From: Elusimicrobia bacterium RIFOXYA2_FULL_47_53
Lineage (GTDB): Bacteria > Elusimicrobiota > Endomicrobiia > Endomicrobiales > XYA2-FULL-47-53
Assembly (NCBI GenBank): GCA_001800315.1
Contig: MGVE01000019.1
Span: forward strand, 791 to 34,499
Length of the DNA: 33,709 bases
Direction: 5' to 3'
Part shown: piece after piece, positions 2,248 to 33,709 of the stretch
Numbering within the stretch: position 1 is the stretch's first letter
Layout: each line of letters starts with the position of its first letter
Position numbers and translations under genes: made by a program
Notes under the pieces: generated by a model
Seen by the model: the letters and a program-made list of their open reading frames with translations, nothing else
Told to the model about the DNA's origin: nothing
Database searches by the model: none

Positions 2248-2568
2248 AAAGTTATTTCAGAAAGAAACAAAGTCGCGGGGCTGCTGCCCCTGCACCCCTT
2301 TCTAACTTTCTTTGAGCGCTCAAAGAAAGTTATCCCACGGCAACTACGCACCCGTCAAAGACGGGTGAAGAATGTTTCGCATTCGCCTGGGAGGTCGGCT
2401 GGTTTTATTTAAACCATTGGGCCGCCACATAAAGAAACGCGCACCCGCGAGCCATTCGCAAAAGTATTTTAGGCAGTCTTGCAAACTCCCTGCCTTGTCG
2501 GCAGGTCAAACAGGCAAGACTGAAGGCCTCCAAAACTACTTTTGCTCATAACCGGCTCGGAAGGGGTG
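2248..2568 (+). repeat. Long multi-hairpin interspersed repeat, copy 1
   Basis: First of five copies in the window; the others start at 7862, 13983 (inverted), 28992 and 33502. In order it contains a GGGGC/GCCCC hairpin, a perfect 28-bp palindrome at 2304-2331 (half-site AACTTTCTTTGAGC), a hairpin CACCCGTC/GACGGGTG at 2349-2367 inside an inserted cassette, and a nested inverted repeat at 2449-2558. That last structure has outer arms GAGCC/GGCTC, then GCAAAAGTA..TACTTTTGC, CAGTCTTGC/GCAAGACTG and CCTGCC/GGCAGG. It carries no protein-like reading frame. It probably behaves as a small non-autonomous mobile or structural element; the mechanism is unknown. Confidence 0.85.
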
Positions 2569-2880
2569 CATATAAACTAAAAACCTTTTAAAGGTTTAAG
2601 TCACAAGGTAGGCCGTCATTCCGGGAATGTTCTGTCCGGAATCCAGAAGTAAGACTAAAGGCTGGATCCCGGACTACTACCTCCGGGATGACGGCACAAG
2701 GAAATCTTCCGTTCACTTACAGCTTACAACTTAAAACTTATAACTTAAACTGGATACCAGCTTTCGCTGGCATGACGACAAAGAAAAAGCCGTCCATCCT
2801 GAGAGAAGCGAAGAATCTCTGTTGCCGGGAAGGGGCGTGACAACACAAAGAAGTCTGCTGCTCACTTAAGAAACGAAGCC
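2569..2880. repeat. REP-like repeat cluster
   Basis: Continuation of the repeat cluster. It includes a CCGGAAT-type palindrome (about 2609-2643), a second copy of the ATCCCGGA/TCCGGGAT module (about 2660-2695), an A/T-rich block built on CTTACAACTTAAAACTTA (2711-2750), and the GGATACCAGC..GCTGGCATGAC module (2751-2779). Each module recurs elsewhere in the window. Short frames here translate to the VIPAKAGI-type peptides that are usual spurious translations of such repeats. Confidence 0.75.
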
Positions 2881-7702: not shown

Positions 7703-7861
7703 CCTGTTTTTAGCTTACGACTAAAGGCTGGATCCCGGACTACTGCCTCCGGGATGACGACACAGATAAATCTGTCATTCCTGTATTTGCAGCGCGGCGA
7801 ATAAGCCGCACAAGCTTGCAACGGGTGCGAGATGTGAGCACACACAGGAATCCAGAATTTA
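7703..7861. repeat. REP-like repeats including a module shared with the window end
   Basis: Contains the ATCCCGGA..TCCGGGAT module (about 7727-7760). From 7774 a block containing CGGCGAATAAGCCG and the stretch ending ACACACAGGAATCC leads into long repeat copy 2. The same block, in the same register and without gaps, occurs at 33414-33501. Confidence 0.75.
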
Positions 7862-8180
7862 AAAGTTCTTTCAGAAAGAAACAAAGTCGCGGGGCTGCTG
7901 CCCCTGCGCCCCGTTCTAACTTTCTTTGAGCGCTCAAAGAAAGTTATCCCACGGCAACTACGCACCCGTCAAAGACGGGTGAAGAATGTTTCGCATTCGC
8001 CTGGGAGGTCGGCTGGTTTTATTTAAACCATTGGGCCGCCACATAAAGAAACGCGATCCGCGAGCCACTCGCAAAGTATTTTAGGCAGTCTTGCAAACTC
8101 CCTGCCTTGTCGGCAGGTCAAACAGGCAAGACTGAAATCCTCCAAAAATACTTTTGCTCATAATCGGCTCGGAAGGGATG
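7862..8180 (+). repeat. Long multi-hairpin interspersed repeat, copy 2
   Basis: Same organisation as the copy at 2248: perfect 28-bp palindrome at 7918-7945, an inserted cassette with the CACCCGTC/GACGGGTG hairpin starting at about 7963, and the nested inverted repeat at 8062-8170. The distance from the palindrome to the nested hairpin is 144 bases, matching copy 1 (145) because both carry the cassette. Confidence 0.85.
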
Positions 8181-8405
8181 TAACGACACAAAAGTCCTCC
8201 GTTCACTTACAACTTAAAACTTCTAACTTAAAATGTTTAGTCTGTCTGGATACCAGCTTCCGCTGGTATGACGACACAGAAAAAGTCCGTCATCCTGATC
8301 TCCCGAAGGGAGAGAAGGATCTCTGTTGCTGGGAAAGGGTGTAACGACACAAAAGTCCGCCGTTCACTTACCACTTACCGCCTACCCCTTATCACTTACA
8401 TCTTA
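8181..8405. repeat. REP-like repeat cluster upstream of the helicase gene
   Basis: Holds the CTTACAACTTAAAACTT block (8201-8234), GATACCAGCTTCCGCTGGTATGA-type module (8246-8274), and CTCCCGAAGGGAG hairpin module (about 8299-8312). Each has sister copies elsewhere in the window. The frame leading into the helicase is open through part of this DNA but is not expected to be translated. Confidence 0.75.
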
Positions 8406-13654: not shown

Positions 13655-13982
13655 TTCAAGTAATAAGTTATAAGTTTTAAGTTGTAAGTTTTAAGTTGAG
13701 TCTGTTGAAAAAGTGTTTCAGTCCGTCTTTGCCTGCCCGCCAAAGCTTTTGTGGAGGGCGAGGAGTGCAACGACACGGCAATCTCGTCGTTCCCGACGGA
13801 AAAGCGAGATTGCTTTTCTCCCTTCGGGAGATCAGGATGACGGCGCTCTACGGAACGCGCAGCAAGCTGCGCAGCTACTTTTTGTCGTCATACCAGCGGA
13901 AGCTGGTATCCACACAGACTGAACATTTTAAGTTGTAAGCTGAAAGTTGTAAGTGAACGGCGGACTTTTTTGCGTCGTTACA
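13655..13982 (-). repeat. REP-like repeat cluster
   Basis: Mostly inverted copies of modules seen elsewhere: the AAGTTATAAGTTTTAAGTTG block (13661-13698 and again about 13924-13956), the CTCCCTTCGGGAG hairpin (13818-13830), and the CATACCAGCGGAAGCTGGTATC module (13889-13912). It also holds GCGCAGCAAGCTGCGC, a small hairpin (13857-13872) that recurs at about 16440-16455. No gene is seen. Confidence 0.75.
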
Positions 13983-14205
13983 CCCGTTCCGAGCCGGTTA
14001 AGAGCAAAAGTATTTTTGGTGGCTTTCAGTCTTGCCTGTTTGACCTGCCGACAAGGCAGGGAGTTTGCAAGACTGCCAAAATACTTTTGCGAATGGCTCG
14101 CGGTGTGCGTTTCTTTATTAACTTTCTTTGCGCACCCAAAGAAAGTTAGAACGGGGCGCAGGGGCAGCAGCCCCGCGACTTTGTTTCTTTCTGAAAGAAC
14201 TTTAA
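13983..14205 (-). repeat. Long multi-hairpin interspersed repeat, copy 3 (inverted, short form)
   Basis: Opposite orientation to the other four copies. The nested inverted repeat is at 13991-14099 and the central palindrome at 14120-14147. The palindrome keeps its 11-bp arms (AACTTTCTTTG/CAAAGAAAGTT) but the middle six bases are changed to CGCACC. The spacing between the two structures is only 48 bases, the shortest in the window, so this copy lacks any inserted cassette. Confidence 0.85.
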
Positions 14206-14370
14206 AATTCCGGATCCCAGAGTGACGGCTCATACCAAGACATATTTAATCAGCCGTCCTCCCAGGCGAATGCGAAGCATTCTTCACCCGTCCAAAGACG
14301 GGTGATTTTTCTCCGCGAGACTAAACATTTCCTGGATGACGGCAGGCTTCACCGCGCCGCCCTGCCGGTA
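14206..14370 (-). repeat. Detached hairpin cassette and remnants
   Basis: 14251-14304 is an inverted copy of the cassette (CACCCGTC..GACGGGTG plus flanking GAATGCGAAGCATTC) that sits inside long-repeat copies 1 and 2. Here it lies outside copy 3. The remainder up to 14370 shows only weak remnants. Confidence 0.6.
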
Positions 14371-16284: not shown

Positions 16285-16650
16285 ACACCAAAGAAGTCCG
16301 CCGTTCACTTACAACTTACAGCTTAAAGCTTTAAAATGTTCAGTCTGTCTGGATACCAGCTTCCGCTGGTATGACGACACATAAAAAGCCTGTCATTGCG
16401 AGGAACGAAGCAATCTCGCAGTTGTTTGGTTTTGTAGCTGCGCAGCTTGCTGCGCGTTCCGTAGAGCGCCGTCATCCTGATCTCCCGAAGGGAGAGAAGG
16501 ATCGCGAAGTTATTGTTACCGTAGAGATGCTTCACTGCGTTCAGCATGACAACAGCTCAAAGCCCTCGTTAATGGCAGTTACGACACAGTCTGTCCGCTG
16601 GTATGACGACTCAAAACAAACCGTCGTTGCGAGCGAAACGCGTCAGATAA
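16285..16650. repeat. REP-like repeat cluster
   Basis: Contains GTTCACTTACAACTTACAG block (16301-16337), GATACCAGCTTCCGCTGGTATGA-type module (16350-16378), the CATTGCGAGGAACGAAGCAATCTCG module (16394-16419), GCGCAGCTTGCTGCGC (about 16440-16455), and the CTCCCGAAGGGAG hairpin (16482-16494). A truncated CCGCTGGTATGACGAC follows at about 16598-16613. These fill the gap between the aminotransferase start and the end of the long nuo operon. No gene is seen. Confidence 0.75.
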
Positions 16651-28991: not shown

Positions 28992-29272
28992 AAAGTTCTT
29001 TCAGAAAGAAACAAAGTCGCGGGGCTGCTGCCCCTGCGCCCCGTTCTAACTTTCTTTGAGCGCTCAAAGAAAGTTAATAAAGAAAGGCGACGCCTCACCA
29101 TCTCGGCGTCCTCATGGAAGTCCGCACTTATTCGTGCGGACATTCGACCACGCGAGCCATTCGCAAAGTATTTTAGGCAGTCTTGCAAACTCCCTGCCTT
29201 GTCGGCAGGTCAAACAGGCAAGACTGAAGGCCTCCAAAAATACTTTTGCTCATAATCGGCTCGGAAAGGGTG
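28992..29272 (+). repeat. Long multi-hairpin interspersed repeat, copy 4 (different cassette)
   Basis: Perfect 28-bp palindrome at 29048-29075 and nested inverted repeat at 29154-29262. The stretch between them is 106 bases and carries a different insert from copies 1 and 2. It includes GGCGACGCC..GGCGTC and the hairpin GTCCGCAC/GTGCGGAC (29120-29141). Confidence 0.85.
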
Positions 29273-29626
29273 TAACGACACCAAAGAAGTCCGCCGTTCA
29301 CTTAGAACTTACAACTTAAAACTTATAACTTAAACCGTTCAGCCTGGAATCCACAAGCGCCGTCATCCTGAGAGAAACGAAGGATCTCCCGTGCTGTCAT
29401 TCCGGAAAGCCTCTGTCCCGCGGCGAAAAATCTCCCGTCTTTGGACGGGTGAAGGATGCTTCGCATTCGCCTGGGAGGTCGGCTGGTTTTATTCAAAGCA
29501 TTGGGCCGCCACTCCGGAATCCAGAAGTAGGACCAAAGGCTGGATACCAGCTTCCGCTGGTATGACGACACCAATGAAGTTCGCCGTTCACTTATAACTT
29601 ACAACTTAAAACTTATAACTTTAAAC
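29273..29626. repeat. REP-like repeat cluster with detached cassette
   Basis: Two CTTACAACTTAAAACTTATAA blocks (29296-29334 and 29586-29626), a detached copy of the CCCGTC..GACGGG cassette (about 29432-29510), a CCGGAATCC module, and the GATACCAGCTTCCGCTGGTATGA-type module (about 29540-29568). It occupies the gap between the FAD/Fe-S oxidoreductase and the nuo operon. No gene is seen. Confidence 0.75.
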
Positions 29627-33413: not shown

Positions 33414-33709
33414 GTCATCCCTGTAGTTGCAGTGCGGCGAATAAGCCGCACAAGCTTGCAACGGGTGCGAGATGTGAGCACACACAGGAATCCAGAATTT
33501 AAAAGTTCTTTCAGAAAGCAACAAAGTCGCGGGGCTGCTGCCCCTGCACCCCGTTCTAACTTTCTTTGAGCGCTCAAAGAAAGTTAATATAGAAAGGCGA
33601 CCACGCGAGCCACTCGCAAAAGTATTTTAGGCAGTCTTGCAAACTCCCTGCCTTGTCGGCAGGTCAAACAGGCAAGACTGAAAGCCTCCAAAAATACTTT
33701 TGCTCATAA
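33414..33709 (+). repeat. Long multi-hairpin interspersed repeat, copy 5 with left extension (cut by window end)
   Basis: 33414-33501 is the same left extension as at 7774-7861. The long repeat proper starts at 33502. Perfect 28-bp palindrome at 33558-33585; nested inverted repeat begins at 33607 and is cut by the window edge. The spacing of 49 bases shows no cassette, as in the inverted copy at 13983. Confidence 0.85.

Follow-up and report, generated by a model that had tools for sequence, protein, structure and literature searches.

MITEs, such as ERIC and Correia, are non-coding, dispersed repeats with inverted ends. H-type pseudoknots with a triple helix occur in telomerase RNA and the SAM-II riboswitch, the known cases being single-function RNAs and not dispersed repeats. 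REPs served by TnpA-REP/RAYT are single hairpins of 20 to 40 nt with a GTAG or CGTC foot, and the CGTC REPs have no dedicated transposase (PMC3733652). In TMECO/PIT/BoxC repeats (Holder et al. 2015), which are G/C-rich, a pyrimidine arm is followed by a short loop, a purine arm, a short spacer, and a mirror purine arm (PMC4666352). TMECO and PIT repeats are intergenic, dispersed on both strands, found as inverted pairs, and variable in presence between strains, with no known mobiliser; a TMECO oligonucleotide formed a triplex of the purine-motif class in vitro, and TMECO has been described as chromosomal and not associated with phages (PMC4666352). Here, viral contigs also contained the TMECO motif, in at least 120 stretches (L329 to L448) with unrelated flanks.

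Here, we analyzed a stretch of 33,709 nucleotides from Elusimicrobia bacterium RIFOXYA2_FULL_47_53 (the window), in which a repeat recurs five times. These repeats are probably copies of a selfish, mobile-like element that is non-autonomous, encodes no protein, and depends for its mobility or persistence on a one-strand fold.

Architecture of the window copies

The preliminary description of this DNA had listed five elements in both orientations, and both points were borne out. The copies lie at 2251 to 2569 (+), 7865 to 8181 (+), 13980 to 14200 (−), 28995 to 29273 (+), and 33505 to 33709 (+); copy 3 is the inverted one, and copies elsewhere in the genome are dispersed both ways. The parts named there, a TTCTTTCAGAAAGAA hairpin, a GGGGC/GCCCC hairpin, a palindrome, and a nested inverted repeat, are found in each window copy; in copy 1, the TTCTTTCAGAAAGAA hairpin is broken. 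The palindrome is real and measures 30 bp (TAACTTTCTTTGAGCGCTCAAAGAAAGTTA) instead of the 28 bp given before. It is perfect in four of the five copies, copy 3 having the loop GGTGCG, and it is the core of a larger motif recurring in other phyla. The copies are not uniformly near-identical, as had been thought: ungapped identity ranges from 62% to 97%, and copies 1, 2, and 4 carry inserts.

Copy 1 begins with the broken outer TTCTTTCAGAAAGAA-type hairpin (GTTATTTCAG, 2251 to 2268, +), followed on the same strand by the GGGGC/GCCCC hairpin, hp0 (2274 to 2290), whose loop pairs with its own 3' tail family-wide. Stem S1, the palindrome TAACTTTCTTTG-AGCGCT-CAAAGAAAGTTA, spans 2303 to 2332 (+). A 96-bp insert follows (2333 to 2428, +), containing a GACGGGTGAAGAATG...GGGAGG repeat that is also free-standing elsewhere in the window, and then a third-strand segment, ATAAAGAAA (2429 to 2437, +), and domain B, a nested inverted repeat with the 3' end GGGGTGC (2447 to 2569, +). 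The copies are mosaic. The 96-bp insert is shared with copy 2 (7947 to 8042), where it likewise sits between the palindrome and the ATAAAGAAA segment, and copy 4 has a two-hairpin insert of about 57 bp (about 29090 to 29147, +) in nearly the same place. In copy 2 (+), S1 lies at 7917 to 7946, the third strand at 8043 to 8051, and domain B at 8060 to 8181. Copy 3 (−) has no insert, and its hp0 (14161 to 14177), S1 (14119 to 14148), third strand (14110 to 14118), and domain B (13980 to 14101) are accompanied by a linker, CGCAC, that pairs with the S1 loop. Copy 4 (+) has hp0 at 29018 to 29034, S1 at 29047 to 29076, the third strand at 29077 to 29085, and domain B at 29152 to 29273. Copy 5 (+) comprises hp0 (33528 to 33544), S1 (33557 to 33586), a third strand mutated to ATATAGAAA (33587 to 33595), and domain B from 33605; it is incomplete, stopping at the window end, which is also the end of contig C19. 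Two assembly contigs end inside an element copy, C19 (window 33490 to 33709) and, at its start, G000:C14. Since the assembly breaks at element repeats, copy numbers are lower bounds.

Other repeats were seen close by. CGTC-type REP hairpins (CCGTCATTCC...GGAATCCAG; translated PAKAGIQ) adjoin most element copies, often abutting the left end, and lie at 2176 to 2238, 2612 to 2650, 2655 to 2717, 7721 to 7783, 8228 to 8293, 16331 to 16396, and 29522 to 29587. A separate repeat, GACGGGTGAAGAATGCTTCGCATTCGCCTGGGAGG, occurs both within copies 1 and 2 (2360 to 2428 and 7974 to 8042) and free-standing (14248 to 14344, −, and 29392 to 29512); its copy at 14250 to 14312 gave a sub-threshold Rfam match to anti-hemB (E = 0.045, below the cut-off). 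Short A/T-rich repeats of ACTTATAACTTACAACTTAAAACTT units also adjoin elements (2715 to 2747, 13664 to 13696, 29300 to 29332, and 29590 to 29621).

Pseudoknots, run-length covariation, and domain B

Divergent copies of the window's own genome have the same plan in different letters. Read on the strand of copy 1, the 5' part consists of hp0, then S1 (T_nCTTTG, loop, CAAAGA_n, enclosed by outer base pairs), a short spacer, and A_nGAAA. The 3' part runs from a linker through CCCC and domain B, whose nested stems surround AACTC-hairpin-TCA(A/G)ACA, to GGGG. The whole is a discrete unit of about 190 to 250 nt with conserved ends and unrelated flanks that encodes no protein.

The linker that immediately follows A_nGAAA on its 3' side complements the S1 loop (pseudoknot 2), as in the loop/linker combinations GGCGAG/CTCGCC, GGCACA/TGTGCC, TTAATGG/CCATTAA, and AGACC/GGTCT. 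The strongest set came from viral contigs, where the search pattern set no linker requirement: the mean loop/linker score was 10.71, versus 7.53 (sd 0.35) for reshuffled linkers, and none of 1000 shuffles reached it. The own genome scored 12.02 versus 10.21 shuffled (0/1000), and the named genomes also exceeded all 1000 shuffles, in a set biased by a pattern that required CGC after the third strand. As a negative control, the same loop/3'-flank test on 140 TMECO-type motifs from viral contigs was null (443 of 1000 shuffles reached the observed value), indicating that the signal is not made by the method itself. Pairing of the hp0 loop with its own 3' tail (pseudoknot 1), assessed in the 94 elements that have an upstream hairpin, scored 7.19 versus 5.62 (sd 0.19), again with 0/1000 shuffles reaching the observed value. 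Both the loop/linker and the hp0/tail pairings therefore have the predicted features of an H-type pseudoknot, namely, a loop paired outside its own hairpin and compensatory changes.

Four window copies (2303 to 2332, 7917 to 7946, 29047 to 29076, and 33557 to 33586) have the loop AGCGCT. Since this loop is self-complementary, the stem becomes a perfect 30-bp palindrome and the loop/linker pairing becomes weaker, at 3 to 4 bp. The palindromic form is possibly derived or cruciform-prone.

In length, the third-strand A-run matches the S1 T/A-run (3-3, 4-4, 5-5, 6-6). With the set collapsed to one entry per organism and combination, the two runs agreed in 91% of 89 entries versus 46% after shuffling (maximum, 65%), the exceptions including some n=4 stems of the own genome whose third-strand run is 3. 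Where the inner and outer runs differed, the third strand was the mirror in 36 cases, a direct copy in 0, and something else in 17. This mirror symmetry excludes two purine segments competing for one Watson-Crick partner, and a Hoogsteen-type third strand requires just such mirror covariation of the runs. An alternative in which the third strand forms Watson-Crick pairs with the T arm was also considered and is excluded where the runs differ, because the third strand is then the mirror and not the complement. Pattern counts for the third-strand base gave 33 matches for G versus 17 for the other three bases together, which is suggestive, and the all-T/A arm pattern was uninterpretable owing to A/T-rich chance matches.

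Intact copies have the Y-R-R arm order of class II intrastrand triplexes, that is, a pyrimidine arm, a loop of 1 to 6 nt, a complementary purine arm, a short spacer, and a mirror purine arm of 6 to 15 nt, with some loops (7 to 9 nt) and spacers longer than the published limits. Read on the complement of copy 1, this geometry would give a pyrimidine-motif triplex whose third strand occupies the deep groove of an H-type pseudoknot; read on the strand as written, it would give a purine-motif DNA triplex, a class shown in vitro for TMECO DNA (PMC4666352). Judging from the sequences, one such triplex may form in cells as well, and the run-length mirror covariation represents evolutionary evidence for a natural triple helix. 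Folding energy was discarded as a guide to the strand: the complement of copy 1 seemed stabler in 28 of 29 own copies, and composition-matched shuffles erased the effect. Outer-stem mismatches were A.C in 29 cases versus G.T in 14, summed over own copies, which are not independent.

Domain B (about 120 nt) was aligned together with S1 for 19 diverse elements of the own phylum. Of 37 consensus pairs, 22 had two-sided changes, and 95% of cells were paired; when partners were slid by 1 to 4 columns, 34 to 61% were paired and 5 to 11 pairs had two-sided changes. As the structure was derived from the same alignment, part of the pairing excess arises by construction, which does not hold for the two-sided changes. 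Stem changes in 20 recent own-genome copies of the window subfamily comprised 26 other mismatches, 7 A.C, 4 G.T, and 1 compensatory change, so that pairing was not favoured. Pairs kept between element lineages, and not per site, are the pattern of a propagating element with decaying copies, not of a host function per locus. Such stem changes in recent copies are expected under selection on the propagating lineage rather than on the individual copy.

These patterns bear on whether the repeats are an independent structured non-coding or cis-regulatory RNA used by the cell, which we consider quite improbable. Functional RNAs typically show such features as a double pseudoknot with a triple-helix signature and long-range covariation, and divergent subfamilies share the same plan. 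However, recent copies do not preserve their pairs, most relatives have no element, and base composition accounts for the difference in folding energy between strands. Rfam 15 gave no family at gathering score in the window, and relaxed thresholds yielded only sub-threshold matches to neighbouring sequence. The complements of all five window copies read toward a gene start, which was the ground for a cis-regulatory reading. That reading was rejected because three of these copies sit between divergent genes and the wider set in the own genome has no orientation bias (6 cases with both neighbouring genes along the top strand, 5 with both against it, and 4 with opposed genes), in a count from a small sample and a crude ORF caller, unreliable in G/C-rich genomes. 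Of the earlier proposals, a structured RNA thus holds as to structure, which is far more elaborate than described (two pseudoknots and a triple-helix signature), and is improbable as to an RNA used by the host. A chromosome-organising site fits badly, the element being absent from most relatives.

Distribution and possible mobility of the element

The whole-genome search advised in the preliminary description found about 40 further copies across the 2.41-Mb genome, on at least 12 contigs, so the element is not confined to one contig. A DNA search gave 64 matches, with BLAST E-values down to 1e-102 outside the window, and the bare palindrome occurred 37 times versus 0 for a reversed-pattern control, so that chance does not explain the copies. 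The strict motif was found in 8 of 150 genomes of the window's phylum (controls, 0), three of which (G120, G053, and G150) look like chance matches, and it was absent from the nearest relative, G001. It also occurs in Pseudomonadota, Bacillota, Bacteroidota, and Ignavibacteria (by record title), which with the window's phylum makes at least five phyla. Among the matches listed, 16 named genomes carry 1 to 82 copies each (controls, 0), a lower bound on a true spread that is larger. No description of the core strings as a repeat was found in the open-licence literature, and an earlier account elsewhere is possible.

A viral or plasmid origin was considered and rejected. The motif had 33 matches in 2.9 million viral contigs; the window element had no match in the plasmid collection, where seven records, mostly large Burkholderiales replicons, match pieces of the Herbaspirillum unit described below. 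In Bacteroidota and viral contigs, a short version of the pseudoknot motif was observed close to one recurring family of phage-like proteins (L082, L123, L182, L189, L192, L201, and L206). Apart from this phage-like cluster, there was no clear recurring partner gene around element loci. The largest recurring "protein" cluster there contains translations of the element itself, and some spurious open reading frames are thereby explained.

Composite units of about 600 to 700 bp, made of two arms that face each other, occur in Herbaspirillum sp. 3R11 and a Polaromonas MAG; the units have common ends and unrelated flanks. At Herbaspirillum locus 1, G173 (flanks 91 to 94% identical) is without the interior of about 585 bp, and G172 retains only the outer ends and one hp0-like hairpin. 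At locus 2, G168 is occupied, G172 has end remnants, and G170 and G177 have nothing. The recommended check for empty sites thus found orthologous sites with and without the element. Since these relatives are about 10 to 25% divergent, loss is as possible as gain, and outer-end remnants persist at the two loci. No transposition event was seen among the compared orthologous loci, and visual inspection of four composite loci showed no target-site duplication. The earlier proposal of a non-autonomous mobile element is supported in part, by the dispersed copies in both orientations, the patchy presence (8/150), the empty and occupied sites, and the composite units.

The shortened and empty sites resemble deletions at two loci and, together with the inverted pairs, which occur in the Herbaspirillum and Polaromonas copies too, are also what an instability motif without mobility might leave: an A/T-rich relative of the G/C-rich intrastrand triplex repeats, spread by recombination or repair and not by transposition. 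Its TMECO-like arm order, intergenic location, lack of strand bias, inverted pairs, and variable presence agree with this explanation (PMC4666352). We regard it as unlikely, since the TMECO-type motifs from viral contigs lack both the loop/3'-flank pairing (the null control above) and the domain B motif, whereas the element forms a discrete unit, about 200 nt long or longer, whose ends are conserved and whose flanks are unrelated.

That the repeats are MITEs of an ordinary DDE insertion sequence is very unlikely, even though they have no coding capacity and have inverted ends, CACCCC...GGGGTG in copy 1 and TTGTTCCGAC...GTCGGAACAA in Herbaspirillum. No target-site duplication was visible at the four composite loci and no autonomous parent was seen, an end-pattern scan of one genome having listed the positions of the ends; terminal repeats alone leave the internal covariation unexplained.

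A REP/RAYT-type element moved by a Y1 (IS200/IS605-type) transposase is disfavoured and appears extremely improbable, although the element is palindromic, high copy, intergenic, and found in inverted pairs like BIMEs and REPINs, and although the own genome has five Y1 genes, one about 650 bp from an element copy. The element has no GTAG or CGTC foot. The RAYT partner suggested earlier did not materialize in genomes with 6, 7, and 82 motif copies: a Y1 transposase gene is absent from the loaded genomes G157, G160, G163, and G165, Silvimonas with its 82 matches among them, whereas G001 has nine Y1 genes and no motif. One Y1 relative was found in 141 element loci, and the Y1 gene in L031 (1340 to 2180) is flanked by an inverted repeat of its own (GGGGACGGTTCTATTT/AAATAGAACCGTCCCC) and carries a longer direct repeat (TTGTTATAATCCGCTTAGTTGCACACCTATCTCAAT). 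RAYT/Y1 was thus rejected as a general mobiliser, being missing from heavily loaded genomes. So was a reverse transcriptase: RVT_1 went unmatched in the window's genome and in 10 of the 12 other loaded genomes searched.

Sequence statistics show the copy number, the patchiness, the presence of both occupied and empty sites, both pseudoknots, the run-length mirror covariation, and the domain B covariation. For the selfish, fold-dependent element that we favour, we infer that it moves and that an enzyme acting in trans recognises its fold. The fold would form when the element DNA is single-stranded or transcribed. The hp0 loop would pair with its own 3' tail to give pseudoknot 1, and the S1 loop would pair with the bases just 3' of the mirror purine segment A_nGAAA to give pseudoknot 2, in which A_nGAAA would lie on the T_nCTTTG/CAAAGA_n stem as the third strand of a triple-helix core. 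Domain B, of about 120 nt and closed by CCCC/GGGG, would stand 3' of pseudoknot 2, and the enzyme would recognise this one-strand fold and propagate the element. We tentatively propose that this may be a mobile nucleic-acid class not described before, spanning at least five phyla, with a single-stranded double pseudoknot and a triple-helix core and propagated in trans by a fold-recognising enzyme. A three-strand, double-pseudoknot design in very different bacteria, with no known mobiliser or Rfam entry, suggests a large overlooked selfish or structured class. The element would be a common genome parasite or structured nucleic acid of which none was found in Rfam or in the open literature searched.

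Comparison with known systems

Like MITEs, the element is non-coding and dispersed and has inverted ends; unlike them, it has an elaborate internal structure, and neither a target-site duplication nor a parental transposase was found. It resembles REPs in being high copy, palindromic, intergenic, non-coding, and present as inverted dimers, and differs from them in its length of about 190 to 250 nt, its two pseudoknots, and the lack of a GTAG or CGTC foot, as read from aligned copies. As in the pseudoknots of telomerase RNA and SAM-II, the complement of copy 1 would set a U-rich loop into the deep groove of its U/A stem, in the register required for the U.A-U and C+.G-C triples of triple-helix pseudoknots. 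Unlike those RNAs, the element is a dispersed repeat, with a triplex predicted from covariation only.

The closest precedent is the TMECO/PIT/BoxC group, with which the element shares the three-arm order, intergenic location, occurrence on both strands, inverted pairs, and variable presence. Its arms, however, are A/T-rich with variable run length (T_nCTTTG/CAAAGA_n/A_nGAAA) and do not follow the TMECO pattern CCCTCNCCC N3-6 GGGNGAGGG N3 GGGNGAGGG. It also differs in its loop/3'-flank pairing, its second pseudoknot upstream, its stem domain of about 120 nt downstream, and its presence in at least five phyla. Overall, REP/RAYT membership is rejected on the tested features, and we place the element in the intrastrand-triplex/palindromic-repeat group, as a new form.
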